Positions 2 through 28,685 of a DNA stretch of 29,461 nt are shown here, one piece after another (position 1 is the stretch's first letter; each line of letters opens with the position of its first letter). The stretch is from positions 1 to 29,461 of the IMG/VR virus record IMGVR_UViG_3300049226_000014. The stretch is one strand, 5' to 3'. A program made the translations under genes and the position numbers. This stretch comes from a virus. The notes beneath the pieces are model-generated. The model ran no database searches, had not been told where the DNA came from, and saw only the letters and a list, made by a program, of their open reading frames with translations.

Positions 2-3000
2 AAATTAGTTAATAATGCAGGTCAATTAATAACAAATCAAACAATTGGTAAAGATATAAGCACTACTAAAAAAGCTCTTAGAAAAATTAAAAAAGAACAT
101 ACTTTATTTGGTAGAGTACCTAGATTCTTTCAAACTACAAAAGACGAAATATTAAACAACAGTACTAATACTGAGTTCTTTAAAGCTTTAGCTGAAGAAG
201 ATAACTTGTATTTAATTAGTAATAATCCAATTACAAGACATTTGCCTGCACAAGTTCAAACAGACATTGCAACAGAAACTGATTGGAGAAAAGTACAAGG
301 TATGTTTGATGACATGATTTCATCATCAGGTTATGCAATACGTAATGATGCAGGACAAATGGTACCTTATACATTGCCAGGACGTATGTTACCTAAGACT
401 GGTTCACTCGCTGTAAATAAATTTATGCAATCTACTGGTTTAAACCCTAATGCTAACTACAGAACATTTGGAAGTTGGGCTGGTGAAAAAACTAGAAAAC
501 TACGTGAGGGTGTATTTCCTATAAGGCAATCTAGAAAAGAACCATCTAAGTTAGTAGAAGTAGGTAACGAAGCTATTATTGATACTATGGATGCTGTATC
601 TGATAAAGCATCAGCATTAGCTAAACTAGAAAACGTTACACCATCATATGCATTAGAAAAATTAGATATAGCAGGAGCACCAAAATTTGAAAGATACTTA
701 GGTTTTAGTTCTAACTTTAACTCTACATACAATCCTTATTACAGAAAATTATTAGGAGTTGTTCCTGACATGGGAATACCTCTAAATAATTTAAATGTAG
801 GATACAAACAATTGTCATCTCATTTGCAAATTAATGGTTATGACGCAGACAGTGCTAATAAAATTATGCAAGACTTTATGAAAATTAATCCATTAGACAA
901 ACCTGCTTATAGAGATTTTGCTTTTCAACAAGCTTCTAGAGATTTAAAAATGGTAAGAGCTAGAGGTGGTAATCACGAATACATAGCAGACCATGCAGCA
1001 CAAATGTTTGAAGGTCTTAATAAAATGAAAATATATGCTACTGATGCAGACAAGAACATACTTCCTAACATTGGTTCTAACTATAGAGGATTTGAAATAA
1101 ATGAATTAGGTTATGCAACAGATGAACTAGGTAATGCTGTAACAACTATGAGTGGTTCTATGTTTAGTGAAATGCAAGACAATATTGCACCGTTATTAGA
1201 TTATAGATTATTAGAACGTGCATTAGGACCTTTGTTTAAAGCTTATCCAGATAATCAATTTAAAGCTACAAGTATTCTTTCTGATAGTAAAAATTATCTT
1301 AAATATAAAACACAACATTTATCATGGAACAAAGCAGATGATGTTATTCCTAATCCATTTGATGATGGAATATTAAATGTTAAAAGATTAGAAAATAACT
1401 TTGTAAGTAATGTTATGTCTTTCTATACAAGAAATTTATTTAAACCATTTGTTTTAATGAGAGCTGCATTCTTTACTCGTGTATTTATGGAAGAACAAGC
1501 ACGTATAGCAGTTAAAGGATTGTCTAGTGTTTACAATAGACCGTACGAATATTTTCAATGGTTAGCTGCACATAATCCTAATTCACGTGTAGGTAAAATA
1601 TTAGAATCTTTACCTTTTAGTAAATACAAAGGAGCACAATACAATCCAGATGCTGTTGAGTTTTTAATGCAAGAAGAAGTAATGGAAGCTATGCAAAAAA
1701 CTATGCGATATGAAGATATGGCTGGCGGTGCAAATAAAACTAAAAATAATAAATACATAGAATATTTAGGTAAAAGTACAGCAGAAATGTCTGAACCACA
1801 AATAGTTGAATCTGTATATCACGAACTTAGATTACTTAGAAGTGACCCATTAGCAGTTGCAGTTGCTAGACATGGTTATGGTAGTGATGAATTAAGAAAA
1901 TGGATTGTTAGTCCTGCAGGTAAAGAAGCTAGATTGCAATACATAAGATACAAAGGGAAAAAGGCTGCAAACTTTATAGATGAAAATCATAGAGATTTAG
2001 ACCAACATTTACAAATGCTTGAATCGAGGGTAAGAATTATATCTGGTGGTACATTTGATTTAGCTAAAGACGCAGTTAAAAACAAAAAAGGTATCTTTAC
2101 ATATGCATTACGTAAAGGTGGCAATGGTGGTAACTCTGCTATAAGAACAATGGTAGCTGAAGGCAAACTTACAAAGTTTGGTTCAACAGGTAGTAATAAA
2201 AAAGACATTGTAGAATTTTTTAGTACAGAAGATGTATTTCTTAAAAAGTTTAAAAAATCTAAAATTACTGATGAATTAGGTAAATACTATAACAAAAAAG
2301 ATGGTATTGACCCAGGTACTCTTACTCAAATTGTAGATAAAGCTGAAGACATGACACCACAAAATTTCTTAGGACAAGTAGAAGATATGATGGATAATGC
2401 TTATCAAGCAATATTTGATAAATTAATGACAAAACCTATTGGTTACTTAAACCGTTCAACTACATTTAAACAATTTAGATGGATGTATGTACAAGATAGA
2501 TTTAAAGATTTTGATAAAGGATTAAGAAGTAAATTTATAAAAGAAGCTAAAGAAGCTGGTGTACCTCAAGATATTATAGACGAAATGATTGGGCTTAATA
2601 AATTATATAAACCAGGAAAAATATCAGATTATGAAGTAATGAACACAGAATCTAAAGCTTATGCATTAGCTGGTGTTAAAGAATTGTTATATGATACAAA
2701 ACAAAGACATACAATATCGGACAAACTTGTAAATGTATTTCCGTTTATTGAAGTATGGTTTGAGGTATTTCAAACTTGGGGACAATTATTTGGAGAAAAC
2801 CCTTATGTATTAAGAAAAGCACATTTAGGTGTACGTGGTGGTGGAGCAGCAGATGCTTTAGGTGCTAGCTCAGAAGATGGATTTATATCACCTGACCCTA
2901 TGGACCCAACAAGAGATGTCTTTGTATATCCATTTGGTGGCTTTATGTCTAATTTAATATTTGATGATGAGTTAACAGATGGAGAACAAAATGTACAAAT

Positions 3001-4399
3001 ATCACCTAGGGGACAATTGCAAGGTGTTAACTTACTAGCACAAGGATTTGTCCCTGGTCCTAACTCATTAGTCGCATTTGGTATAGACAAAGTACTACCA
3101 AAAATAGAAACAGCTACAACAAAATTAGGTGCTAAATATGGTTGGGCTAATGAATTTGAAAAGTTTTTATTTGGTGATTTCCCACCACCAGAAGAATTGT
3201 CTGATGTATTTGCTGTATCTCCTGTATATAAAAAAGGTAGAGCAATGTTATTAGACCCAGAAGACTTTGAATATATTACAGAAAATAGTAGCGATGTAGA
3301 AAAAATGCGTGCTAAGAAAACTATTGATGTATTTAGATGGGGTGTATCTGCAGGAGAACCTAAAAGATTATACGAATCTGGTAAGTTAGATAAATATTTA
3401 GATAAAGTTGCACCCAATACATCTAAAGCTAATTTAAACCAAGGACAAATAGAACTTGCTTATTTAGAGTTTGCTAAAGAAAAATCAGGTACTTTGTTTG
3501 CATTTGAGTTTATGGTGCAGTTCTTTGGTCCTACTGGATTTAAACCAGAGTTCTTTGTAGAAGATAAACAAGGACATTTGTGGGGACAAGCTGCTTTGTA
3601 TGAAGAGTATATAAGAATTAGAGAAAAAAATAATGGTAATGATATAGCTACATATAATGAATATTTAGAACTATATGGATTAGAACATCCATATATGATG
3701 AGCCCTAGGTCACAATCAGAAGTAGGTAAACAACCTACAAGTGTTAGAGTACAAAACTTTCAAAAAGATAATCCAGAAATATTTGATAGTTTAAAGGTAA
3801 GTGGTTACTACTTAAATATAGATAATCCTTATGAAGAAAAAAGATATGACGATATTGTTGTAGATAAAACATTGTTAAGCCCTGACCAATATCGTAGAGC
3901 TGTAAATGATACACTAGGTTTCTTTAGGTATAAAACGTTTACAAAGAAAATAGATGCAATGGAAACATTAACATCACAACAAAAAACTATATTTAAACGT
4001 AGTTATAGAAATGAATTAAAACTTGCTTTACCTGGTTTCCAATCAGAAGAATATGGTCAAATGAATCCACCATCTACAGATGATATATTTACTGAGATGA
4101 AACAACAATGGCTTAATAACCCAGCAATATTAGAGCTTGATTCTGGTAAAGGTTTTGCTGCTATAATGCAACATTGGGATTATGCAACAGCATTATCTAT
4201 TGAATACTCTAGTACTAAGAATCCTGATTGGTGGTTACAATCAGAAGACCCTAGAGCTAAAGCTTTAAGGATTTATGTTGCTAATGCAGCTAATGGAGTA
4301 ATTGAAGAATACCCAGAGTTTTGGGGTGTGTGGACAGGAGTTATGTTAAAGTTATATAGAGATGACCAAGAAGTATTAGATTACTTCCCAGAAGGATAA
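2..4399 (+). CDS. giant virion-associated protein, 5' partial
   Basis: The reading frame is open from base 2 to the TAA at 4397-4399, so the gene is cut by the window edge and encodes at least 1,465 residues. A TTG at 206 could be read as a start, but the frame continues upstream without a stop, so I do not use it. No catalytic motif or membrane helix is obvious. The protein is mostly charged and aromatic-rich, with many predicted helical stretches. It is followed after one base by the next gene and lies in the late, same-strand block ahead of scaffold and capsid. Very large proteins in short-tailed phages are often internal virion (ejection) proteins, and that is my best guess from size and position alone. 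A head-associated multidomain protein is the alternative. Family not recognised. Confidence 0.8.
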   Translation, partial: KLVNNAGQLITNQTIGKDISTTKKALRKIKKEHTLFGRVPRFFQTTKDEILNNSTNTEFFKALAEEDNLYLISNNPITRHLPAQVQTDIATETDWRKVQGMFDDMISSSGYAIRNDAGQMVPYTLPGRMLPKTGSLAVNKFMQSTGLNPNANYRTFGSWAGEKTRKLREGVFPIRQSRKEPSKLVEVGNEAIIDTMDAVSDKASALAKLENVTPSYALEKLDIAGAPKFERYLGFSSNFNSTYNPYYRKLLGVVPDMGIPLNNLNVGYKQLSSHLQINGYDADSANKIMQDFMKINPLDKPAYRDFAFQQASRDLKMVRARGGNHEYIADHAAQMFEGLNKMKIYATDADKNILPNIGSNYRGFEINELGYATDELGNAVTTMSGSMFSEMQDNIAPLLDYRLLERALGPLFKAYPDNQFKATSILSDSKNYLKYKTQHLSWNKADDVIPNPFDDGILNVKRLENNFVSNVMSFYTRNLFKPFVLMRAAFFTRVFMEEQARIAVKGLSSVYNRPYEYFQWLAAHNPNSRVGKILESLPFSKYKGAQYNPDAVEFLMQEEVMEAMQKTMRYEDMAGGANKTKNNKYIEYLGKSTAEMSEPQIVESVYHELRLLRSDPLAVAVARHGYGSDELRKWIVSPAGKEARLQYIRYKGKKAANFIDENHRDLDQHLQMLESRVRIISGGTFDLAKDAVKNKKGIFTYALRKGGNGGNSAIRTMVAEGKLTKFGSTGSNKKDIVEFFSTEDVFLKKFKKSKITDELGKYYNKKDGIDPGTLTQIVDKAEDMTPQNFLGQVEDMMDNAYQAIFDKLMTKPIGYLNRSTTFKQFRWMYVQDRFKDFDKGLRSKFIKEAKEAGVPQDIIDEMIGLNKLYKPGKISDYEVMNTESKAYALAGVKELLYDTKQRHTISDKLVNVFPFIEVWFEVFQTWGQLFGENPYVLRKAHLGVRGGGAADALGASSEDGFISPDPMDPTRDVFVYPFGGFMSNLIFDDELTDGEQNVQISPRGQLQGVNLLAQGFVPGPNSLVAFGIDKVLPKIETATTKLGAKYGWANEFEKFLFGDFPPPEELSDVFAVSPVYKKGRAMLLDPEDFEYITENSSDVEKMRAKKTIDVFRWGVSAGEPKRLYESGKLDKYLDKVAPNTSKANLNQGQIELAYLEFAKEKSGTLFAFEFMVQFFGPTGFKPEFFVEDKQGHLWGQAALYEEYIRIREKNNGNDIATYNEYLELYGLEHPYMMSPRSQSEVGKQPTSVRVQNFQKDNPEIFDSLKVSGYYLNIDNPYEEKRYDDIVVDKTLLSPDQYRRAVNDTLGFFRYKTFTKKIDAMETLTSQQKTIFKRSYRNELKLALPGFQSEEYGQMNPPSTDDIFTEMKQQWLNNPAILELDSGKGFAAIMQHWDYATALSIEYSSTKNPDWWLQSEDPRAKALRIYVANAANGVIEEYPEFWGVWTGVMLKLYRDDQEVLDYFPEG

Positions 4400-4400
4400 A

Positions 4401-5783
4401 ATGAATTTAGTATTATTTAAAAAAATTTTTAAACGTTTAGAAATAAATAAATCTATAGGAAAAGATTCTCCATTAACTTGGATTGAGTTTTTAGAAGTAG
4501 CTTTTAAGGATATGCCTGAACCACCAGTTGAGTTTATATCTGAAGAAGACGCAAAAGAAGTAATGGAATGGTGGAATAGTAAACCATTTACACAAGCAGT
4601 AAATGCTAAAGAAGTAGCAGCTACTGTAGAACAAAAAGTAGAAACAGCTTCAACTACACCTCAACCAAGTAGACAAGAGTTTCAATCACAAGTACCTTCA
4701 GCTGTATCTGGTAGAGATGCACAAATAACAGAATTAGAAACATATGGTATAGAAGAAGAAACATATAACGAGTTAAGTACAAAATTTGGTTTTGCTCCTA
4801 CTGAAGAAGATATATTTAATTGGGTTGCAAGTCTACCTGAAGAAGAACAATTACAAGGCAATATACAAGCACAAGCTTATTTTAATTTAATGACAGGTGA
4901 AACACCACTTAGACCTGCATTTAATGATGATGGTACTGCAGTTTTTATTAATGGTAAACAACCTCTTATGCCATTTTCTGGTCATTTTAAAGGTACAAAA
5001 GTAAGTGATATACTTGATAATCTTTCTACTTTTGATGAAAAAAAAGCGTTTCAAGATTTTTTAACTAGCAATAATTTAGTACCAGACAATTACTTTGCAG
5101 AAAGTGAAGGTGAAATGTCTGAGAAATTACGTGCATCAATTATGTATGTAATGAACTGGGCAGATAAAAATATACATGCTGTACCAGGAACTGAGTTATA
5201 CAAAGCTATATCAGAAGAAGACCCTGTATATTTTAGTGAATCACAAAACCTTTACGGTGAATGGGATGTACATAGAAATATATTTAATCATGCACTAAAA
5301 GAACTTGCTAAGAAACAAGATACTTTAGATGAAGTACAAGAAGCAGAGATAGCTAAAGAGTTAGCTAAAGAATTTATACCACCTAATAAATCTGCATTAG
5401 AAGATATGGTAGATGCATACTTTGAAAACAAACTAGGTAGAAGTGCTACTGAAGAAGAACTAGACGAATGGTCTACTAACTTTGCTGATAGTTACTCTAT
5501 AGCATTTGCACAAGCTAGAAGTAAAGCACAACAATTACAAGATGCAAACTTCATGCAATCACAACCAGAATATTTAGAATTAGATACAGATAGACAAGCA
5601 TTAGCTAACCAATATGGTGCAGAAAAAGTAATAGACTTATCTATGTTTAGTACAGATTCTCCACAAGATATTATGGCCCAACAGGTAGAAGATGAATTTG
5701 GTAAGCAAATAGATGCTGTAGAAGAAGGTAGAAAGGTTAGACAAATGCAAAATGATATGGTTGCATATATGTTTGGAGGATAA
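4401..5783 (+). CDS. acidic protein of unknown function, possible internal virion protein
   Basis: This 460-residue protein is strongly acidic and rich in Glu, Gln and Ala, with a low-complexity Pro/Thr/Gln stretch near residues 75-95 that looks like a linker between an N-terminal domain and a long helical remainder. No signal peptide or membrane segment is seen. The ATG lies one base after the stop of the giant protein, and the stop overlaps the next start as TAATG, so it is translated as part of the chain leading to the capsid genes. I do not recognise a family. Position among coupled late genes suggests a virion or assembly role, which is inference only. Confidence 0.8.
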   Translation: MNLVLFKKIFKRLEINKSIGKDSPLTWIEFLEVAFKDMPEPPVEFISEEDAKEVMEWWNSKPFTQAVNAKEVAATVEQKVETASTTPQPSRQEFQSQVPSAVSGRDAQITELETYGIEEETYNELSTKFGFAPTEEDIFNWVASLPEEEQLQGNIQAQAYFNLMTGETPLRPAFNDDGTAVFINGKQPLMPFSGHFKGTKVSDILDNLSTFDEKKAFQDFLTSNNLVPDNYFAESEGEMSEKLRASIMYVMNWADKNIHAVPGTELYKAISEEDPVYFSESQNLYGEWDVHRNIFNHALKELAKKQDTLDEVQEAEIAKELAKEFIPPNKSALEDMVDAYFENKLGRSATEEELDEWSTNFADSYSIAFAQARSKAQQLQDANFMQSQPEYLELDTDRQALANQYGAEKVIDLSMFSTDSPQDIMAQQVEDEFGKQIDAVEEGRKVRQMQNDMVAYMFGG

Positions 5784-6631: not shown

Positions 6632-7905
6632 TGCCTGACCCAACACAAGAAAATATAGAAGATTATAAATCTGACGGTTACAATTACGATAATTTTAAAG
6701 GTGATTATGAAGGTCAAGAAATAATTTATGTAACTGGAGAAGGTTATAAGTTAGCTATAGATATGGGTAACTACACCTACATATTAGATTTACCAGATAC
6801 ATTTTTACTTGGAGATATATCTAACTCTCCTAAAAGAGATACAGGTAAACATGGTGACGATATAGAAGCTAAAGCAAGAGTTGATGCAGGTATAAGAGCT
6901 GACATATCACAAGAGGATTTTAATAAAGGTTTCTTAGATAGTGATATATTAGTTAGTGTTCCTGTTGGTGCATTAGATTTACCTGAAGGTGCAGATGCTT
7001 TAGAGATAGCTCAAAACTTTGCAGAATCTGTTAAAAGAAATAGAAAAAGAATTACTTCTAGGTTGTTATCTAATGATGATTATGTTGCATTAGTAACTTC
7101 AGAGTTAATTGCAACTGGTGGAGATATGAAAGCTGCTATAGCAAATGTAGAAAAATTAGATGAATACGGTGTTATATTAGGAGATTTAGGTGTAACACAA
7201 AATCAAATTGATTCTGAAAGAATGAAATATACTGACCCATTACAGTTTGAAAAGAACTTTACAAGTTACAAAAATTTATTTACAAAAACAGCTGCTAAAT
7301 CTTATGGTAGTGAACTACCTGAATCTGTTATAGATTACTTAGCAACTCAAACAAACAATGGATTTTATTCACAAGCAGAAGCATTAGAACAAATGAATGG
7401 TATATTCGACCCATCTGCAAATATTATATTAGATAACGGTATTCTAAATGCATTAGAAGGTATAGAAGTAGCTACTACTAAAGTAGGTGAATCTGATGTA
7501 CAAGATTTATTAGACCAATATTTACCAGAACATTTACATTCTACATATAACATATTAGAAGAAGCTGGCAATATACGTAACAATGCTGGTGCTAGAGAAA
7601 GTTTAATTAACAAACTAAAGAAAACTAGATTTCAATTTTACAATATGTATGATGAAGATATATCTTGGCAACAAATTATTGCATCTAAACAACAAATGGC
7701 TAAATCTGTATTAGGGCAAGATTTAAAATCTAATGACCCATTACTTGATGAAATTATAAAAATGAATGATAGTGGTCAGGAACTAGAACGTTTAAGAAAT
7801 TATGGTTTAAAAACTGGTAATCAAAAAGTTAAGAATGATTTAGCAGGTGCAATGATGGATACATTTGGTAAAGGTATAGTACCTAGTAGGAGTTATGTAG
7901 GATAA
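6631..7905 (+). CDS. hypothetical late protein
   Basis: A 424-residue acidic protein without signal peptide or membrane segment. The first 80 residues are rich in Tyr, Asp and Gly and look beta-like; the remainder looks helical, with many Leu/Ile/Asn/Lys heptad-like runs. It is joined to both neighbours by TAATG overlaps, so it is co-translated with the membrane-segment protein before it. No catalytic motif was found and I recognise no family. Its place in the block between the giant protein and the scaffold suggests a virion or ejection component. Confidence 0.78.
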   Translation: MPDPTQENIEDYKSDGYNYDNFKGDYEGQEIIYVTGEGYKLAIDMGNYTYILDLPDTFLLGDISNSPKRDTGKHGDDIEAKARVDAGIRADISQEDFNKGFLDSDILVSVPVGALDLPEGADALEIAQNFAESVKRNRKRITSRLLSNDDYVALVTSELIATGGDMKAAIANVEKLDEYGVILGDLGVTQNQIDSERMKYTDPLQFEKNFTSYKNLFTKTAAKSYGSELPESVIDYLATQTNNGFYSQAEALEQMNGIFDPSANIILDNGILNALEGIEVATTKVGESDVQDLLDQYLPEHLHSTYNILEEAGNIRNNAGARESLINKLKKTRFQFYNMYDEDISWQQIIASKQQMAKSVLGQDLKSNDPLLDEIIKMNDSGQELERLRNYGLKTGNQKVKNDLAGAMMDTFGKGIVPSRSYVG

Positions 7906-8927
7906 TGGCGTTTGATACATTAGGAAGACCAACAAATAAAGAAGTAGATAATGAATCTATTTTTAAATATAGACCAGGACAAATAGTAGAAAAAGATGTT
8001 TATTTAGACACTGGTGATTACATTAACCCAGGACAAGATGCTAATGGTAATCCAGGTATTGCTAAGCAATATCAAGGAGAAACAGTCAGTAGTCCTAAAC
8101 CAAAAGATAGTGGAAGGTCAATAGCAGAAGGAACTACACTTGCACAATCTTTGTATAATTTTTTACCTGATGAAGTTATAGATGAATTTGCAAAAGCATG
8201 GGTAAAATCAGGTGACCCTGATGTTGCTATAGGTACTACTAGACAAACTAAAGCTTGGAAAGATAACTTTGGTAAATTAATGCGTGATGATGGAACATTA
8301 GTTATGGATGAAATGACATTTCTAAGTACTAAAGCTTCTTATAAACAAACATTAGCTGAAGTAGGTATACAAGATTTTACAGATTTTGAAGATGAGTTTG
8401 AAGATATGGCTACAGGTTTTGAAACAGATGACCCTGTATCTGCTGAAGAGTTTCAAGCTAGAATTGATATGGTATACGGTGGTGTTAAAGACCAAATACC
8501 TGAAGTAGAAAAACTATTTAGAGATAGATTTAATATTAAACTTGATGCACCTACTATATTCGGTGCTTTAATTAATCCTAAAATACAAGACAAAATATTA
8601 GCTGGAGAAATAGCAACATTACAATTACAAGCTGAAGCATCATCTAGAGGATTTACTACAACATTTGGTAGGTTCCAAGAACTTAGAAACCTTGGACTTA
8701 CACAAGAACAAGCTCAAGGTATCTACGGTACTGCTTCTGACTTTATATCACAAGCTTCATCTGTGGGTAGAGATTTAAATATAAATACATTAGAAGATGC
8801 TGCATTAGGTGATACATCTGCACAGCAAAGATTACAACGTATACAAGCAGAAGTTCAATCTAAAGGTGGATTGACATTAGGTGCTGCTAAAAAAGGTGAT
8901 GAAGTAATTGGACTTACAGCCGATTAG
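7905..8927 (+). CDS. hypothetical late protein, last gene before structured leader
   Basis: A 340-residue acidic protein starting at a TAATG overlap and ending with TAG at 8925-8927. The N-terminal third is Gly/Pro/Asp-rich and probably partly disordered; residues from about 75 onward look helical, with several Gln/Ala-rich segments near the C-terminus. Neither a signal peptide nor a membrane helix is seen. Its last codons overlap the -35 region of the promoter that drives the scaffold and capsid genes, so this gene closes the upstream operon. No family is recognised. Confidence 0.8.
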   Translation: MAFDTLGRPTNKEVDNESIFKYRPGQIVEKDVYLDTGDYINPGQDANGNPGIAKQYQGETVSSPKPKDSGRSIAEGTTLAQSLYNFLPDEVIDEFAKAWVKSGDPDVAIGTTRQTKAWKDNFGKLMRDDGTLVMDEMTFLSTKASYKQTLAEVGIQDFTDFEDEFEDMATGFETDDPVSAEEFQARIDMVYGGVKDQIPEVEKLFRDRFNIKLDAPTIFGALINPKIQDKILAGEIATLQLQAEASSRGFTTTFGRFQELRNLGLTQEQAQGIYGTASDFISQASSVGRDLNINTLEDAALGDTSAQQRLQRIQAEVQSKGGLTLGAAKKGDEVIGLTAD

Positions 8928-8935
8928 TGTATAAT
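8908..8935 (+). promoter_or_regulatory. sigma70-type promoter ahead of the structured leader and capsid operon
   Basis: A perfect TATAAT lies at 8930-8935, with TTGGAC at 8908-8913 and a 16-base spacer. The expected start site is near 8942, just where the structured leader begins, and the box sits immediately after the stop of the preceding gene. Good match and sensible placement; a strong dedicated promoter for scaffold and capsid would fit their high demand. No transcript data are available here. Confidence 0.7.
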
Positions 8936-8941
8936 AAGTTT

Positions 8942-9133
8942 AAGCGTTGCGTGGTCCGCTAATAGACCTGCACTCAGCTTTCGAAGCCTACGTTGAAAGC
9001 TCGTATTAAAAACCGTAGAGTAATGGACTTATAGCTTTTAGCTACCAGAGAGATAAGTCAAGTGTTTAAGGTAGCACCACGGCAAGATGCCTATGGTCTT
9101 GTCTGATAGGTTAACACATAGTGGAGGTACAAA
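8942..9133 (+). ncRNA. structured leader RNA (5' UTR) with two candidate H-type pseudoknots
   Basis: This gene-free stretch of about 190 bases is visibly less AT-rich than its neighbours and full of complementary segments. Hairpin A pairs 8953-8956 with 8965-8968 and may extend. Pseudoknot 1 pairs 8976-8982 with 8995-9001 (7 bp), and its loop segment 8988-8992 pairs with 9014-9018 (5 bp). Helix B pairs 9026-9032 with 9053-9059 (7 bp); a nested hairpin, 9032-9036 with 9040-9044, competes only for base 9032. Pseudoknot 2 pairs 9083-9087 with 9097-9101, and its loop 9090-9094 pairs with 9106-9110; an outer CCAC/GTGG pair (9077-9080 with 9121-9124) encloses it and touches the ribosome site. An alternative hairpin pairs 9081-9084 with 9088-9091. 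I do not recognise a known RNA family: it does not read as a tRNA, hammerhead or twister. It is probably the leader of the scaffold-capsid mRNA. Confidence 0.6.
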
Positions 9134-9595
9134 ATGGAAGAATTTGATGCACCAGATAACGGTGTAAAACAAATGAGAGAAACAATTGATAGAAAAGATG
9201 ATGCTATCAAAAAACTTGAGGCAGAACTAGCTTCTTATAAAGATAAGGAAATAGACAATGTCTTCGGTAATTTAGGATTATCTACTGACAAAGGTTTCGG
9301 TAAGGCGTTAAAACAAGTGTATGATGGACCTGTTGATACAGAATCTATCTCACAGTTTGCTAAAGAAGAGTATGGTTGGGAATCTAGCGGATTAGCCCAG
9401 GAAGTAACACAACCTGTAGTTGAACCAATAGTCCAAGACGATGCACGTTCTAGAGTAGCTGCACTTGATGCAAATTCTAGTTCAGATGTACCAATGTCTG
9501 TCAATGATGAATTAGTTCAAGCTTTAAAAGGAGCTTCAGTAAAAGATTCTCTTAGAGCTAAATTAACCATTATGGACAACGAAAAAGAAAAATAA
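9134..9595 (+). CDS. putative capsid scaffold protein
   Basis: A 153-residue acidic protein whose residues about 12-45 form a charged coiled coil (Lys/Glu/Asp with heptad Leu/Ile), followed by a low-complexity Val/Gln/Pro segment and a short helical C-terminus ending in Lys/Glu. This size, composition and position, directly before the major capsid gene, are typical of head scaffold proteins, which direct shell assembly and then leave the procapsid. The ATG is preceded by a GGAGG ribosome site at 9123-9127, much stronger than for most genes here. It is the first gene after the promoter and structured leader. The scaffold role rests on context and coiled coil, not on a recognised family. Confidence 0.75.
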   Translation: MEEFDAPDNGVKQMRETIDRKDDAIKKLEAELASYKDKEIDNVFGNLGLSTDKGFGKALKQVYDGPVDTESISQFAKEEYGWESSGLAQEVTQPVVEPIVQDDARSRVAALDANSSSDVPMSVNDELVQALKGASVKDSLRAKLTIMDNEKEK

Positions 9596-9632
9596 GTAAA
9601 AGAATTTAATACGACATATACGGAGGTAAATC

Positions 9633-10769
9633 ATGGCAGCAATAACGCTGACTGGTGACACACTTTACTCCCAAAAGATTAACAACTTTTCGGGAGAGCT
9701 ATTCCGTGTAGGTGGTCAAAGAACTCCTTTCTTATCTGCAACAGGTGGCTTGAACGGAGGTAAGGTTTTACAATCTACTTTCTGGCAAATCCAAGCTGCT
9801 GACTCACACACAGTATCTTCTGAACCTGGTAAAGGTGCAGAAGGTGGTGCACCAACTGAATATCTTGGAAGAGATAGAGTTGCGTACACAGGTGTGACAC
9901 AGATATTCCATAAAGGTGTCAAGATGACTTACACAGCTATGGCAACATATCAGCATCAAAACTCATTTAACATCAATGCAGCTGGAGGAGGAATCACTCC
10001 TGTAGTTTCATCTGATGGTGATGGTACAACAAGTGCCGCAGCACTATTAGGATTAGCTGGTTCTAATCCAATCGTTGATGAGTTTGCAGAGCAAATGTCT
10101 TTGGCTCTTGAAAAAGTAGCTAGAGAAGTAGAATGGTTCGCATTCAATGGTACTTATGCAGATGGAGCTCACGCTACACCTGGTTCAGGTACTAGAGAAA
10201 TGCGTGGTCTTTCTGAGTACGTTGCTCTTAATGCAAATGCAAACAATACAGTTGCACCTACATTTGTAGGCGGAAACGTATACTGGAACGGTACAACTGG
10301 TAACGGTGCTACAGGTGATGCTCAAGTATTATCTTGGGATGCTATCGCTAACTCTCTTAAGAGATTGTATGATGCACATGCTCCAATGGTACAGCCTGTA
10401 CTTTGCGTAACTCCAAAACAACTTTTGGATTTAAACAAAGAATTACTAGCTGGTTCTGTTGGAATCACAGGTGCTATCTTACCTAGAGATAGAAACCTTG
10501 CTGGTATTGATATTGACGTAATTGTTACTCCATTCGGACAGATTGGAATGATGGTTATTGACCCTAATATCATGCCTGCTAATGAAGCATTTATTTTAGA
10601 CTTTGCTTTTATACAGCCAGTCTTTACAAATATCCCTGGATACGGAACAGTATTCGTAAGAGATATTGACCAAAATGCTGATGCTAAGATTGCTAAAGGT
10701 ATCTATATGGAAATGGCTTACGACTTCGGTCCACCGTCATACCATTTAAAGATAGACAAAGTAGCTTAA
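9633..10769 (+). CDS. major capsid protein, SU10/DUF5309-like
   Basis: A 378-residue protein forming the icosahedral head shell (HK97-type fold expected). The pattern matches SU10-like (DUF5309) capsid proteins: a beta-rich N-terminus with a Gln-rich loop near residues 88-115, a helix around residues 147-170 with the characteristic acidic/aromatic 'EVEWFAFNG' step, a 'MRGL' turn near residue 190, and a C-terminal beta domain. Length fits the family. A very strong ribosome site (GGAGGT at 9622-9627) precedes the ATG and a terminator follows the gene, as expected for the most abundant virion protein. Codon choice looks less AT-biased than in the flanking genes, with more C-ending codons, consistent with high expression. 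Confidence 0.9.
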   Translation: MAAITLTGDTLYSQKINNFSGELFRVGGQRTPFLSATGGLNGGKVLQSTFWQIQAADSHTVSSEPGKGAEGGAPTEYLGRDRVAYTGVTQIFHKGVKMTYTAMATYQHQNSFNINAAGGGITPVVSSDGDGTTSAAALLGLAGSNPIVDEFAEQMSLALEKVAREVEWFAFNGTYADGAHATPGSGTREMRGLSEYVALNANANNTVAPTFVGGNVYWNGTTGNGATGDAQVLSWDAIANSLKRLYDAHAPMVQPVLCVTPKQLLDLNKELLAGSVGITGAILPRDRNLAGIDIDVIVTPFGQIGMMVIDPNIMPANEAFILDFAFIQPVFTNIPGYGTVFVRDIDQNADAKIAKGIYMEMAYDFGPPSYHLKIDKVA

Positions 10770-10783
10770 CAAATTTGAAGATT

Positions 10784-10815
10784 AGGGTGGGTATCCACCA
10801 CCTGCCCTTTTCTTC
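10784..10815 (+). terminator. intrinsic terminator after the capsid gene
   Basis: GGTGG at 10786-10790 pairs with CCACC at 10795-10799 across a four-base loop, with further partial pairing of AGGG (10784-10787) and CCCT (10805-10808) as an alternative outer stem. A T-rich run (TTTTCTTCT) follows from 10808. The 65-base gap between the capsid gene and the next gene is otherwise rare in this compact region. It would partly insulate capsid transcription from tail genes; read-through is likely since no strong promoter follows. Confidence 0.65.
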
Positions 10816-24048: not shown

Positions 24049-24321
24049 TTAGATAGTCTGTTCTCTTTTTAAAAATCCTTTAAGTAAATCACGATATGCT
24101 ACACTAGTTCCGACTCTTTGTCTTCCATCATATATATCGTGGTGATGCTTACATAATATAGCTACATTATTAATATCAAATTTACGTTTCTTATTACCGC
24201 CCATACCTATACCCTGTATATGTGCAAGTTCTAACCATTTACTATCATTGCAATATGCCCATTCACATTGACCATTAGCACGTTGCATTGCTTCTTCACG
24301 TATCTCTGATAGTCCATTCAT
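24049..24321 (-). CDS. HNH endonuclease-like protein
   Basis: 90 residues encoding a compact HNH domain: zinc-type pairs Cys19/Cys24 and Cys57/His60, the 'LELAHIQG' segment with His34 as the catalytic-type His, Asn51/Asn52 before 'VAILCKHHHDIYDG' (residues 53-66). HNH nucleases cut DNA; in phages such small versions act in packaging or as homing enzymes. The start overlaps the upstream stop as TAATG. It ends the leftward operon, facing the late genes. Confidence 0.85.
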   Translation of the reverse strand: MNGLSEIREEAMQRANGQCEWAYCNDSKWLELAHIQGIGMGGNKKRKFDINNVAILCKHHHDIYDGRQRVGTSVAYRDLLKGFLKREQTI

Positions 24322-24887
24322 TAATCTATTATAAAGTAACTTCCCTTAGGTAAGTCCCATGTTTTCATAACATCTCGTGCTCTAAATTTACCCTTCTCAG
24401 GACTGCCGTTATATATACAATGTGCAGCTTTCATAAACATTAAACTATTACACTTACCATTTGTATAATGTATTTTACTTTCATTAAACATAATAAGTTT
24501 TTCTATATAATCTAATGTACGTTGTGTTACTTCGCCATGGTCTGACTTAGTAGCAGGACGCATAGCATGTTCTATATTACCAATCTTTTCATTATTACCT
24601 ATACGAATACCTCTAGGACATAACTTAGATTTTCGTATTGTATCTAATTCATGTGAAAGTTTTATGTTCATATCTAATGTGTCACGTTTAATAATCATAG
24701 TAACCCAGATAGGATTACCTTTATCTGTTACTCCTAGTAAACGTTTACCTCCAAATGTATTTGCTTTCTCTGCCTCTGTAATCTTTTCGTTTAACCACTC
24801 GTACCATCTGACTCTTGTAGTGTCTGGCGTGATGTGGTATAGCTCTGATGCACTGACGAATCTAGTGCTTGTAGTGTTATACACCAT
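24321..24887 (-). CDS. hypothetical early protein
   Basis: 188 residues, basic overall, with no membrane helix. A beta-rich core ('NPIWVTMIIKRDTLDMNI') is followed by a helical C-terminal half with two Cys. The start lies directly after the TAA of the preceding leftward gene and the end overlaps the HNH gene by TAATG, so it belongs to the same operon. I do not recognise the family. An accessory role in DNA metabolism is suggested only by neighbours. Confidence 0.72.
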   Translation of the reverse strand: MVYNTTSTRFVSASELYHITPDTTRVRWYEWLNEKITEAEKANTFGGKRLLGVTDKGNPIWVTMIIKRDTLDMNIKLSHELDTIRKSKLCPRGIRIGNNEKIGNIEHAMRPATKSDHGEVTQRTLDYIEKLIMFNESKIHYTNGKCNSLMFMKAAHCIYNGSPEKGKFRARDVMKTWDLPKGSYFIID

Positions 24888-25097
24888 TTACTCTTCTTCT
24901 CCTTCTAGTTGTTCTAAGTGATAGTTATAATCTGTTACGAATTTATCCATTAAGAACCTGAGCTTTTCCATGTCAGGTTGTACCTTAAACGTATCGCTGC
25001 CACATGCTTTATTAAACTGTTGAGCCCATACTTTCATGTACTTAGGATGTGTAAATATGTTTACACGACTTACATCAAATGGTTTATTCCCACTCAA
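24888..25097 (-). CDS. small early protein starting at TTG
   Basis: 69 residues, with a Lys/Phe-rich body and an acidic tail 'EQLEGEEE'. The only available start near the 5' end is TTG at 25095-25097, preceded by a GGAG sequence about 10 bases before it; no upstream ATG exists before an in-frame stop. It overlaps the 3' end of the preceding small zinc protein by 14 bases. Function unknown. Confidence 0.6.
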   Translation of the reverse strand: MSGNKPFDVSRVNIFTHPKYMKVWAQQFNKACGSDTFKVQPDMEKLRFLMDKFVTDYNYHLEQLEGEEE

Positions 25098-25254
25098 GAT
25101 TATCCATCTCCATTTCTAATTTTTCTATACAATCATTACAATACTTAACCAATGTAAAATCTGTCATGTAACTCATACCACATATTTCACATACAAGATT
25201 AAGTATTTTATTTATTTCTTTTTTAAATATTTTGTTTATGTTAAGCCATGTCAT
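25084..25254 (-). CDS. 56-residue zinc-ribbon micro-protein
   Basis: ATG at 25252-25254 on the minus strand gives 56 residues with an amphipathic Lys/Ile-rich helix and then two Cys pairs: 'CEIC' at residues 22-25 and 'CNDC' at 39-42, a C-x2-C...C-x2-C zinc ribbon. A GGGGA sequence lies upstream of the ATG. The stop overlaps the following TTG-started gene. Zinc ribbons of this size often bind nucleic acid or a host protein. It is too short for many gene callers. Confidence 0.6.
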   Translation of the reverse strand: MTWLNINKIFKKEINKILNLVCEICGMSYMTDFTLVKYCNDCIEKLEMEMDNLEWE

Positions 25255-25345
25255 CTACATGTCCCCACACTTTCTCACAATAATCACAATATACTTGGTC
25301 AGTTACCACGCATACTCTGTTTAGTTTGACTCCACAACAAATCAT
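25241..25345 (-). CDS. 34-residue Cys micro-protein nested at the end of the lysin gene
   Basis: In the +1 frame relative to the lysin, ATG at 25343-25345 starts a 34-codon frame ending in TAA at 25241-25243. AAGGA lies 7 bases before the ATG, an unusually clear ribosome site inside another gene. The product has 'MICCG', a further Cys at residue 12, and 'CDYC' at residues 20-23, a plausible zinc knuckle. It overlaps the lysin by 47 bases and the next gene by 14. Moderate support only. Confidence 0.45.
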   Translation of the reverse strand: MICCGVKLNRVCVVTDQVYCDYCEKVWGHVDDMA

Positions 25346-25751
25346 TATCAGTTCCTTTCCAACAATGTTTACTACTGTTCCAATGATGCCATCCATCATT
25401 ATACACTAACCAAGCTGCGACTGCAGTAGATACTTCAGGGTTAGTACGTTCACTTATTATACCTAGCTTAGGTTTTAACCATGCCCATGTGTCATCATTA
25501 AACTGCCAGAGTCCAACATCCCTGGTACCGTTAGTATTATTACCGATAGCTTGCGGGCGGCCGCTACTTTCGCAGTAAATAATATTTAATGCACGAGGGA
25601 TGTCTTCCTCTTTAAAGTATTCAGATACTATATTGCTGTATCTCTGTACAACAACAATGTCTTCGACAGTGTCAAGACACTCCTTGTATTCGAATACATT
25701 ATCGGTTGTTAGTACAAAGGGAAACAAACAACCGATTAATATTTCTATCAT
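25299..25751 (-). CDS. lytic transglycosylase / lysozyme-like protein in the early block
   Basis: 150 residues. The hydrophobic N-terminus (residues 1-15) is a likely signal or signal-anchor. The catalytic region reads 'YCESSGRPQAIG' (residues 59-70), with Glu61 as the acid, and 'DVGLWQFNDDTW' (78-89), matching the E-S-S and G-L-x-Q motifs of SLT-type lytic transglycosylases that cut glycan strands. Cys residues at 8, 25, 60 and 130 could form disulfides outside the cytoplasm. It lies among leftward replication genes rather than with the lysis block, so it may act at entry or be a second lysin. Start fixed by a TAATG overlap. Confidence 0.8.
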   Translation of the reverse strand: MIEILIGCLFPFVLTTDNVFEYKECLDTVEDIVVVQRYSNIVSEYFKEEDIPRALNIIYCESSGRPQAIGNNTNGTRDVGLWQFNDDTWAWLKPKLGIISERTNPEVSTAVAAWLVYNDGWHHWNSSKHCWKGTDNDLLWSQTKQSMRGN

Positions 25752-26029
25752 TAGCTAATGGCAGAAGTTTTTGTTGGAACTTCTGTACAATAATAATGTA
25801 CAAGTCCACGTTTCTTACTAGGTAAAGTTGTTATCTTATAACCTTCCTGCCTAAGATTATGTATAATTCCACCGAACCTATGGCAATACAACTCAGCTAC
25901 AAACTCCCAGTTACTTATAGGACTTTCTCCCATGTATCTAGTAAATACGTATGCAACTAACTGTGTCTTACTTTTAATATAAGCTGGTATTGCTTCATCT
26001 CTGAATGATTCTGGTATCATACATTCCAC
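25751..26029 (-). CDS. hypothetical early protein
   Basis: 92 residues with alternating helices and strands, ending in 'KKRGLVHYYCTEVP'-like beta strands; the layout could be a winged-helix domain (helices around residues 10-60, then a hairpin at 68-85), but I see no diagnostic motif. It overlaps the end of the preceding zinc-ribbon gene by 13 bases; an internal ATG at codon 4 is a possible start. The stop overlaps the lysin start as TAATG. Confidence 0.68.
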   Translation of the reverse strand: MECMIPESFRDEAIPAYIKSKTQLVAYVFTRYMGESPISNWEFVAELYCHRFGGIIHNLRQEGYKITTLPSKKRGLVHYYCTEVPTKTSAIS

Positions 26030-26559
26030 TCCTTTGGTATATCGCTGTTATCTAACCACCATGACTTACGCCATTTACCTGTATGTCCACCACATACAAC
26101 TGGGTCATTAGTACTACAAGTAAAGTCAGGACTTTTGTCTGACTTCTTACTGTTACGATTATCATATACCATTGCTTTACAGAATGGACATGCTAAATCG
26201 TCACGATATTTATTTTGTTTTTGTACGTCTTCCACTATGCCTCCTAGCATATCACCTGCACCTTGCAGTCCAGGAGTTATGTCAGTTGCTGCTAACCCTG
26301 CAGCGTCCAACTTTTCTTCGAGAGATAACTTATCAAAGTCATCTTGTGTATATTCTACAGGCATGTCTACTAATTTTTCTATCATAGCTAGATACTTATC
26401 TAACTGTTCATCAGACCAATAAGTTTTATCTTGTGCAAACTTCATAGTCTTAGCGTATTCATTAGCAGTTCCAATAATCTTGTGTAATGTTTCTGTATTC
26501 TGTACAGATTCAGTCATAGTTTTTATTGTATTAGTTATGAATGATAAGTCTTGTCCCAT
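26017..26559 (-). CDS. helical protein with C-terminal zinc ribbon
   Basis: 180 residues. The first 115 are helical and acidic. The C-terminus holds a zinc ribbon: Cys124/Cys127 ('CPFC'), then Cys148, Cys156 and His159, around a segment 'YDNRNSKKSDKSPDFTC' and ending in 'GKWRKSWWL' (161-169). Such ribbons occur in phage and host single-strand DNA and RNA-binding proteins. It directly follows the Rad52-type gene with a TAATG overlap, so the two are probably used together in recombination or replication. Function is inferred from context. Confidence 0.75.
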   Translation of the reverse strand: MGQDLSFITNTIKTMTESVQNTETLHKIIGTANEYAKTMKFAQDKTYWSDEQLDKYLAMIEKLVDMPVEYTQDDFDKLSLEEKLDAAGLAATDITPGLQGAGDMLGGIVEDVQKQNKYRDDLACPFCKAMVYDNRNSKKSDKSPDFTCSTNDPVVCGGHTGKWRKSWWLDNSDIPKEWNV

Positions 26560-27122
26560 TAGAATGGTGCATCTTCTGGTGTTTCATCAGCTGTATCGCT
26601 GCTATCTTCACCGACTATACTATTCATAATAGCTTCCATACGCTCGATATCTTCTTTAGTAGGCTTGTGTTCTTTCTTACGCATATCTACTTTAGTAACT
26701 TCTACCTTATCTTCTGGCTCAGTATCTGAAGTAGCTTCTTCTTCTGATTGCTTACTACCTGACCATAGCTCTACACCAAGGCCAAACCTCATGCATGCAC
26801 GTTTAAATGCATCAGACTCTGCGTCTTTAAGATTGCTACCATCGTTAAACTTTTCGTTGTTTAACTTGAATGTATCTACATCACCAAAGCCTACGTAACT
26901 ACCCATATTATCTAATGTGATAATACCTTTGGCTCCTACAATACGCTTCTCTCCATTGTGTGTACTATACACTGGTTCGCATTCCCATTTGTAATTAATT
27001 CCACTGTCCCTTAGTCGTTCAACGTAATGTGCATGTGGCACATAATCACCGAACTTACCTGCGGGTGCTTTACGAACTAACTCCTGTGGAAAAGGAGATA
27101 GCAAGTCAACGTTATTTACCAT
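26559..27122 (-). CDS. Rad52-type single-strand annealing protein
   Basis: 187 residues. The core matches Rad52/Rad22-like annealing proteins (as in phage Sak): 'NYKWECEPVY' (residues 43-52), 'GAKGIITLDNMGSYVGFGDVD' split over residues 63-83, and 'LKDAESDAFKRACMRFGLG' (98-116), the helix that binds DNA. The rest is a disordered acidic tail ending 'DTADETPEDAPF' (residues 176-187), which resembles the C-terminal tip of bacterial SSB. The protein anneals complementary single strands during phage recombination and replication. The start follows AAGGGA. A long perfect hairpin lies just upstream. Confidence 0.85.
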   Translation of the reverse strand: MVNNVDLLSPFPQELVRKAPAGKFGDYVPHAHYVERLRDSGINYKWECEPVYSTHNGEKRIVGAKGIITLDNMGSYVGFGDVDTFKLNNEKFNDGSNLKDAESDAFKRACMRFGLGVELWSGSKQSEEEATSDTEPEDKVEVTKVDMRKKEHKPTKEDIERMEAIMNSIVGEDSSDTADETPEDAPF

Positions 27123-27139
27123 AACATTCCCTTCTTTCT

Positions 27140-27183
27140 TTTATCTTTGTGTGAGAGTCAGTAGTGACGAACACAAAGATAAA
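27140..27183 (-). promoter_or_regulatory. long perfect hairpin in the recombinase leader
   Basis: Thirteen bases at 27140-27152 are perfectly complementary to 27171-27183, with an 18-base loop that itself can pair GTCA (27157-27160) with TGAC (27165-27168) across GTAG. No T-run follows on the leftward strand, so it is not a typical terminator. It sits 17 bases before the recombinase start codon and downstream of a short gene, in a genome where gaps are usually one base. It may be an RNase III cut site, an mRNA-stabilising stem or a protein-binding operator. Confidence 0.7.
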
Positions 27184-27186
27184 GTA

Positions 27187-27393
27187 TTATTCTCTTTCTA
27201 AGTCTAATAACTTTCTTAAATTATGAATACCTTTTGTTACTGGTATCATTTTAAAATCGCCTTGGTCATTCATTAATATAAAGTGTGGCTTATCACCTAA
27301 ACCACTGTACTCTATACTCTGTAATTTCCAGTTAGACTTGACAATTAAGTCATCCATATGTATATTATATGCTTTATATGTCAGTGTTTGCAA
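27187..27393 (-). CDS. hypothetical small early protein
   Basis: 68 residues with a beta-rich core ('SNWKLQSIEYSGLGDKPHF') and a helical C-terminus. The ATG overlaps the end of the metallophosphoesterase gene by 20 bases; an internal Met at codon 13 would remove the overlap and is an equally possible start. No motif or family is recognised. It is followed by the hairpin and then the recombinase gene. Confidence 0.62.
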   Translation of the reverse strand: MQTLTYKAYNIHMDDLIVKSNWKLQSIEYSGLGDKPHFILMNDQGDFKMIPVTKGIHNLRKLLDLERE

Positions 27394-28444
27394 GCTTTAC
27401 TAAGTATTCTGCAGTAACTCCAGCACCTGGCTTAGCAAATAATAGCCATTGACAAGGCCTTCCCATGCTAGCAAGCTGCTCTAATGCGTAAGTGTTATAG
27501 CTTTCTGTGCTTCCATTAACCCATAACCTTACGTCATTAACGTACATAGTTGTAGGTGTATGGAAATGTCCAGCAATTGCATAGTCAAAGTCAGGCATTA
27601 AGCCACGACTAGCTAATGCTTTCCATCCTAATAACTTCTTACCAAAGCCATACCATGGAAATCCACTGTGTCCTCTAACATTATCACCGTGCCATACAAA
27701 GAACTTACATCCTTCACCTACGTCTGCAATGTCGAACCAATGGTTATCACCTGTACTATCAGGTATAGTCCATGTCATTCTCTTTTCATCCTTATATATC
27801 ATTGACATAATCTTTCCAAGCATTCTATCTGCATTGGAATCTGGATGATAATCTTTACGTGCTCTACCACCAAGGCTGCCATGATTACCTATAACCCAAT
27901 GAACATCTACTTCATTAAAGTTTGCTAGTAATGTATCAAAAAATTTTGTTAATATTCGAGGACCGTCAATAGTTACTTGGTTATATAAACTAGCATCTAT
28001 AAGATGTGTTTGACCTGGGAATATAAGTTCACCTTCTACTATATCTCCAGCTGCTAGTACTACGCATTTGTTAACTGGATGTGCAGAACGTTGTACATTA
28101 GTAAGCTCTACTATTTTGTTAGCATATTCAACTACACGTTCTTCAGCTACTAAAGTATTATAATCAGGAGTTACCTTAGCTAATTGAACGTCACTTAATA
28201 TAGCTACAGCTACTTCTTCGTTCTTAGTTTTTTTATGTAGTTTAGGTTTAGGAATTTTAGGTTTGTCCCACGTCCGTAGGTTTGTAGATACTGCCTGATA
28301 TACAGCGTCAATCATATCAGATTTTTTATTCTTAGCTTTTTCTAATTGTTTAAGTAACCTAAGATTATCTTTTTTAAGTTCACGAATTTTATGTGATTCA
28401 GCTTCAGCTATAAGTTTGTTAATTTCTTTTTCTGATTTAGGCAT
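27374..28444 (-). CDS. calcineurin-like metallophosphoesterase
   Basis: 356 residues. Residues 1-45 form a charged coiled coil. The catalytic domain has the ordered metal motifs: 'LSDVQLAK' (83-90), 'AAGDIVEGE' (131-139), 'VIGNHGSLGG' (184-193), 'WHGDNVRG' (251-258) and 'AGHFHTPTT' (291-299). Motif I is D-x-Q instead of the usual D-x-H. The N-terminal coiled coil and missing His are the odd points. Such enzymes hydrolyse phosphoester bonds; Mre11/SbcD nucleases belong to the same superfamily, and a role with the Rad52-type protein in DNA end processing would fit. It overlaps the upstream gene by 8 bases. Confidence 0.85.
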   Translation of the reverse strand: MPKSEKEINKLIAEAESHKIRELKKDNLRLLKQLEKAKNKKSDMIDAVYQAVSTNLRTWDKPKIPKPKLHKKTKNEEVAVAILSDVQLAKVTPDYNTLVAEERVVEYANKIVELTNVQRSAHPVNKCVVLAAGDIVEGELIFPGQTHLIDASLYNQVTIDGPRILTKFFDTLLANFNEVDVHWVIGNHGSLGGRARKDYHPDSNADRMLGKIMSMIYKDEKRMTWTIPDSTGDNHWFDIADVGEGCKFFVWHGDNVRGHSGFPWYGFGKKLLGWKALASRGLMPDFDYAIAGHFHTPTTMYVNDVRLWVNGSTESYNTYALEQLASMGRPCQWLLFAKPGAGVTAEYLVKLANTDI

Positions 28445-28685
28445 CAGCTGCTAAATTTTCAAAGTGATTACGTACCGCTGATTCACTTACTTTAATATTG
28501 AAATGTTCTTTTAGTAATCTTGATACAACATAAGGCTTTACATGTCTACCATTCTTAGCACGTTCTTCACAGCCTTCCCAAAAAGGTTGTGCTTCTGGTG
28601 TAATTCTGGTTTGTATAGCACTACGTTTGCCATTCTCTGCTTCTTCTAATAACTCTTCTAATTCCATAGTTATCATGATAGTCAT
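28437..28685 (-). CDS. small helix-turn-helix-like early regulator candidate
   Basis: 82 residues. After an acidic N-terminus, residues about 45-78 ('KNGRHVKPYVVSRLLKEHFN' then 'VSESAVRNHFENL') read like two helices joined by a turn, as in winged-helix or CENP-B-type DNA-binding domains. The first ATG (28683-28685) lies 8 bases after a -10 box; codons 4 and 7 are alternative starts. Being first in the leftward operon suggests a regulator or replication-initiation protein. No family assigned. Confidence 0.65.
   Translation of the reverse strand: MTIMITMELEELLEEAENGKRSAIQTRITPEAQPFWEGCEERAKNGRHVKPYVVSRLLKEHFNIKVSESAVRNHFENLAADA

Follow-up and report, generated by a model that had tools for sequence, protein, structure and literature searches.

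Gene order and promoter at the scaffold and capsid locus

The window, i.e., the whole stretch of DNA that was analysed, is a 29,461-base IMG/VR virus record of a marine phage. It holds a leader gap at 8928-9133, between the end of the upstream open reading frame (8927) and the start of the scaffold open reading frame (9134), and genes nearby overlap by one base at 5783, 6631 and 7905. The one-base overlaps and the empty gap ahead of the scaffold gene had been pointed out in the initial annotation, and the boundaries of the reading frames agree with it. The genes and signals around the leader are as follows:

7905-8927, plus strand: upstream gene of unknown function (phrog_8424), whose 3' end holds the upstream part of the promoter
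8930-8935, plus strand: -10 promoter element TATAAT, with the same letters in 62 of 62 aligned relatives
9123-9127, plus strand: Shine-Dalgarno sequence GGAGG of the scaffold gene, outside all pseudoknot helices
9134-9595, plus strand: scaffold-like gene (phrog_7813, unknown function), directly downstream of the leader
9633-10769, plus strand: major capsid protein gene (phrog_1328 major head protein, E 5e-28)

The product of 9134-9595 is called scaffold-like on the basis of its position ahead of the capsid gene. The product of the upstream gene is only 21-30% identical, or undetected, in relatives that retain the leader. The promoter had been annotated as strong. The -10 element is invariant among relatives that were chosen without regard to TATAAT, which upholds that part of the claim; however, the -35 element (TTGGAC/TGGACT) is a weak one, and the leader promoter is missing from the sites listed by the consensus promoter scan. 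Based on the usual spacing between -10 and +1, transcription is predicted to start at about 8941-8943. The Shine-Dalgarno sequence is invariant as GGAGGTAC in the leader alignment.

A terminator-like hairpin is located at 10784-10808, 3' of the capsid gene, and suggests a short scaffold-capsid transcript. The T7-promoter-like string TTTAATACGAC at 9605-9620, ahead of the capsid gene, is present in some close relatives only and lost in others, and it is probably a chance occurrence. Elsewhere in the window, 206-4399 encodes a 1397-aa protein with no Pfam or PHROG match and with a 2016-aa counterpart in the phage found in a metagenome-assembled genome (MAG), and a leftward block at 24049-28685 on the minus strand contains an exonuclease (phrog_284), a Rad52-like protein and an SLT lysozyme domain.

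Architecture and covariation of the leader

The comparison of homologous sequences makes it almost certain that the 5' UTR of the scaffold-capsid mRNA is a series of four H-type pseudoknots, with three or four in relatives, that begins at about +1 and stops just short of the Shine-Dalgarno sequence:

8943-8972, plus strand: PK1, with 8943-8946/8957-8960 and 8948-8950/8970-8972 plus 8953-8956/8965-8968
8976-9018, plus strand: PK2, with 8976-8982/8995-9001 and 8988-8992/9014-9018
9026-9075, plus strand: PK3, with 9026-9032/9053-9059 and 9041-9046/9070-9075
9081-9121, plus strand: PK4, with 9081-9087/9097-9103 and 9091-9095/9117-9121

The initial annotation had proposed a structured leader with two nested pseudoknots ahead of the scaffold and capsid genes. 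Covariation backs the pseudoknotted leader as such; the number of pseudoknots is four, and they stand in tandem instead of being nested. PK2 had been given exactly, while PK1 at the 5' end and PK3 had been missed. A 7-bp helix annotated at 9026-9032/9053-9059 is real and forms one half of PK3, the pseudoknot not having been reported. Likewise, the stem 9083-9087/9097-9101 of the second candidate was recovered in a longer form in PK4, but its partner strand was not: the pairing 9090-9094/9106-9110 shows no compensatory changes and is 83.9% paired, no better than shuffles. The partner 9091-9095/9117-9121 is 100% paired with three double-covarying pairs.

These results come from 61 distinct homologous leaders of the window's clade, aligned with MAFFT without regard to structure (A1). 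The four-pseudoknot structure is paired in 97.5% of the cells of this alignment vs 92.7% in shuffles, and sliding the helix partners by 1-3 columns lowers the value to 31-42%. Changes on both sides were found in 19 of the 48 pairs. A total of 111 cells are double-changed vs 17.7 in shuffles, a number reached by none of the 500 shuffles; as the shuffles leave relatedness in place, these counts are not probabilities, and the weight of the argument therefore rests on repetition in independent clades. Moreover, the pair cells include 94 G-U and only 12 A-C combinations, which indicates that the plus-strand RNA, not the DNA, is under selection.

Double-changed pairs, as expected of H-type pseudoknots, occur in seven of the eight helices, and the eighth, the PK2 stem, is wholly changed in the most divergent locus, L061. 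Helices 1 and 2 (PK1) are 92% and 98% paired, with double changes in each (e.g., GACG/CGUC in L045). Within PK2, the pair 8990/9016 changes from A-U to G-C in 10 of the 61 leaders. The PK3 stem is rewritten as GUUAUCC/GGAUAAC in L045 and as CCCUACC/GGUAGGG in L073, and helices 7 and 8 (PK4) are 100% paired, with double changes in 8 of their 12 pairs. Apart from the rejected partner strand 9106-9110, the comparison of homologues showed neither uncompensated variation of the paired segments nor absence of the region, the two outcomes named beforehand as speaking against the structure.

The leader is more conserved than the genes it precedes: mean identity to the window is 91.6% for the leader, 80.2% for the scaffold coding sequence and 81.4% for the capsid coding sequence, and leader identity exceeds that of the scaffold gene in 59 of 60 comparisons. 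Unpaired bases are also strongly conserved in the window's clade (85% mean column identity), which suggests that something in them is recognised.

The tandem-pseudoknot score of the leader is the highest of 2342 190-nt windows taken from both strands of the phage, with z of 3.5-5.0 against dinucleotide shuffles. When only nested folds are considered, the region does not stand out (MFE z = -0.49), and RNAalifold, which works without pseudoknots, recovered part of the fold only, together with spurious long-range pairs. The search of Rfam 15 at the gathering score left the window and 11 divergent relatives without a match, in line with the initial annotation, which had recognised no known RNA class; relaxing the threshold to E<=10 for 8880-9180 added nothing but a spurious SNORD43 match that falls outside the leader. 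Since neither nested folding nor Rfam gave a signal, the claim is decided by comparison. The blastn search of the leader against named phages gave chance matches only.

Across clusters of leaders, the median module has a stem of 7 bp, a second stem of 5 bp and loops of about 4, 1 and 11 nt. The first paired base lies at a median of 8 nt past the -10 element, i.e., at about +1 to +2, a value affected by some first helices being misplaced by the tiling script described below. The last helix ends at a median of 17 nt before the AUG over all clusters and 12 nt in the window's clade; in the window itself, PK4 ends one base upstream of the Shine-Dalgarno sequence. Of 119 leader modules across clades, 79 have a C immediately ahead of the second stem, and the loops of PK2 and PK4 are similar (GCCUACG and GCCUAUG, e.g., window 8983-8992 and 9088-9095). 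The common C and the likeness of the loops hint that modules were duplicated or that they share a base triple.

Distribution among relatives and probable hosts

The capsid-protein search of IMG/VR yielded 75 loci. In every locus with enough upstream sequence, the same two genes are separated by about 200 nt or more, and the leader is the same except in the most divergent locus, L061, which carries a rewritten version. A pattern scan of the collection yielded 19 more contigs that strongly match the covariance model R1, which was built from the four primary hairpins only; in the matched contigs that were examined, a scaffold homologue directly follows the leader. With more distant capsid proteins as queries, the set was widened to relatives whose capsid protein is as little as about 47% identical to that of the window; these keep the plan with unrelated sequences and three or four pseudoknots. 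In the relatives, the conserved structure lies between a conserved -10 element and the start of the same gene, as in a cis-acting leader, and exactly one copy was found in each of eight 42-50 kb phage records searched. No R1 match was found in two distant capsid relatives, Mycobacterium phage Mendokysei (69-nt gap) and Propionibacterium phage Doucette (258-nt gap).

Covariation was seen in three separately aligned clades. In the three-pseudoknot clade A6 (12 sequences), 98.5% of the cells are paired, and the columns of the PK1 stem are filled by three unrelated sequences. Another four-pseudoknot clade, A5 (8 sequences), is 95.2% paired with 8 double-changed pairs. Versions of the PK1 stem across relatives include CCC/GGG, CUGCG/CGCAG and UAUUUUG/CGAAAUA. 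L061 also has four pseudoknots, with most helices rewritten: AGUCG/CGACU in PK1, UAGCACA/UGUGCUA with UACGG/CCGUA in PK2, as well as CAUUACA/UGUAAUG and CGAC/GUCG.

An analysis free of alignment was performed with a de novo pseudoknot-tiling script that uses a simple stacking-energy model. Three to four pseudoknots were found in all 51 leader clusters (92% identity clustering), with a mean z of 2.98 against dinucleotide shuffles; z exceeded 2 in 43 clusters and was below 2 in eight. Coding controls gave a mean z of 0.15, with 4 of 100 above 2. The script may miss the partner supported by covariation, and in the window it picks 9106-9110 for PK4; because it sometimes chooses the wrong partner, its exact helices are trusted less than the alignments.

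Concerning the hosts, distant capsid relatives (22-27% identity) are phages of Mycobacterium, Propionibacterium and Bifidobacterium, and the genome collection gave a single match, a contig assigned by binning to an Actinomycetota MAG. This 54-kb contig (L323, PBPX01000048.1) is a phage genome read around the circle, with a 10.3 kb terminal overlap that is 99.4% identical; it represents a free circular phage, not an integrated one, so binning is all that links it to the host. A search of four phage records for WhiB found none. This weak evidence makes marine Actinobacteria the probable hosts. Phages of Ca. Actinomarinales with low GC have been described (PMC7771536, PMC3861242).

Comparison with known systems and possible function

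Several known RNAs share single traits with the leader. The dicistrovirus intergenic (IGR) IRES is likewise compact, has three pseudoknots and immediately precedes a capsid reading frame; however, its pseudoknots are nested and interlocking, whereas those of the leader form a chain, and it serves eukaryotic ribosomes. Rfam gave no sign of a sequence relation between it and the leader. Initiation there needs neither a Shine-Dalgarno sequence nor initiator tRNA, whereas in the leader an invariant GGAGG precedes the ATG. The upstream pseudoknot domain of tobamoviruses, considered to stabilise the mRNA and enhance translation, has three pseudoknots in tandem like the leader, but it belongs to the 3' UTR of a plant RNA virus and adjoins a tRNA-like end. 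The tmRNA also has about four pseudoknots, arranged around a reading frame loaded onto the ribosome; the leader has no recognised tRNA-like domain or tag reading frame and no Rfam tmRNA match. The pseudoknot of the T4 gene 32 leader, which nucleates binding of the gene's own protein, is likewise part of the leader of an abundant phage mRNA, yet it is a single pseudoknot, whereas three to four fill the whole leader here. The SAM-II and preQ1-II riboswitches use one H-type pseudoknot that adjoins and captures the Shine-Dalgarno sequence and binds a ligand. The leader resembles them in having a pseudoknot next to this sequence, which nevertheless stays outside the helices; neither a Shine-Dalgarno sequence within a pseudoknot nor a covarying helix hiding it was found, and there was no Rfam riboswitch match. 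No description of tandem pseudoknots in phage leaders was found in the open-access papers searched. The leader is a real and apparently undescribed RNA element, a new RNA class within the structured cis-acting leaders.

As to its function, the likeliest reading, to which we give slightly less than an even chance, is that the leader is a cis-acting 5' armour and insulator of the late mRNA. PK1 would tie up the 5' end of the mRNA once it is transcribed and so hinder 5'-end-dependent nucleases, the chain of pseudoknots would leave few single-stranded stretches for endonucleases, and it would stop the leader from pairing with the ribosome-binding site. The outcome would be strong and long-lasting translation of the scaffold and capsid genes. 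Form rather than sequence persists across clades and the number of modules varies, which fits a mechanical or protective role better than recognition of a single ligand; the placement at the very 5' end also favours armour and insulation over ligand recognition. In energy models, the unpaired probability is 0.4-0.94 for the Shine-Dalgarno sequence and 0.74-0.92 for the AUG when the pseudoknot bases are masked, compared with 0.01-0.85 and 0.12-0.20 in nested-only folding; the chain could also keep the start site open.

RNase J, a 5'-to-3' exonuclease, would best suit a 5' barrier. The sole MAG holding a related phage contains an RNase E/G gene, and RNase J was not found in this MAG, which may be incomplete and is linked to the phage by binning only; for this reason, no specific claim of exonuclease blocking is made. 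In E. coli, disruption of pseudoknot 2 of the dicistrovirus IGR IRES reduced mRNA accumulation and left translation unimpaired (PMC9458429), which offers a direct precedent for a stabilising effect.

The main rival is an autoregulatory operator, to which we give a minor but real share of the probability: free scaffold or capsid protein would bind the chain and repress or pace translation of its own gene, so that subunits are supplied as assembly needs them. The leader always lies directly upstream of the scaffold and capsid genes, and the conservation of unpaired bases in the window's clade keeps this option alive. In phage P22, the scaffold gene is autoregulated post-transcriptionally, a parallel that places a control point just ahead of the scaffold gene, although we know of no comparable pseudoknot chain in P22-type autoregulation. 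Protein-bound operators usually keep a common motif, however, and none was recognised across all clades; with the Shine-Dalgarno sequence outside the structure, a bound protein could act only through crowding. It is rather improbable that the leader is a translation enhancer, a phage counterpart of structured IRES elements, in which the last pseudoknot recruits or positions the 30S subunit. Its distance from the Shine-Dalgarno sequence and the AUG is such that it would abut a bound 30S, but that distance to the AUG varies between clades, the canonical Shine-Dalgarno sequence makes special recruitment unnecessary, and the IGR IRES acts in E. coli via S1 and a Shine-Dalgarno-like element, not via its pseudoknots (PMC9458429).

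A switch responding to a metabolite, an ion or the stage of infection would alternate the chain with a fold that hides the Shine-Dalgarno sequence through the 7-bp helix 8955-8961/9119-9125. Nested-only folding does hide this sequence and the AUG, and the SAM-II and preQ1-II riboswitches show that pseudoknots in this position can serve as switches. The alternative helix is nevertheless broken in many of the 61 relatives with no compensatory change (G-A at 8958/9122 in 8 leaders; 8960/9120 paired in 44 of 61), and no sequence resembling a ligand core was recognised across clades, which makes a switch improbable. We regard it as very improbable that the leader works at the DNA level, as a site for packaging, replication or recombination, or that a separate small RNA is cut out of it. 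The single copy at a fixed genome position would suit either, but the covariation with its G-U and A-C cells is specific to RNA. The separately processed RNA suggested in the initial annotation found no support, as no terminator was found in the leader, its structure reaches the Shine-Dalgarno sequence and the gene directly follows. The other two roles suggested there, controlling or stabilising the mRNA and binding a capsid protein, both stay among the plausible readings.

Taken further than the armour and insulator reading itself, and with less assurance, the leader may represent the first known class of modular pseudoknot-chain leaders in phages of bacteria, with three to four interchangeable modules that would serve the capsid mRNA of abundant ocean phages as a nuclease-resistant, ribosome-insulating substitute for a cap. 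Leaders with structure, and H-type pseudoknots occurring singly, were known already; what is new, as judged by Rfam and the literature searched, is a leader made wholly of covarying pseudoknots from +1 to the Shine-Dalgarno sequence, with a module number that depends on the lineage. Standard screens based on nested folds would miss it, as the z of the window's leader shows. With this leader, the question of whether a tertiary RNA fold at the 5' end makes a bacterial mRNA more stable or insulates the ribosome-binding site can be put to a direct test. The leader also supplies a natural set of portable modules, and it points to a way in which capsid production may be driven in phages whose marine bacterial hosts are uncultured.
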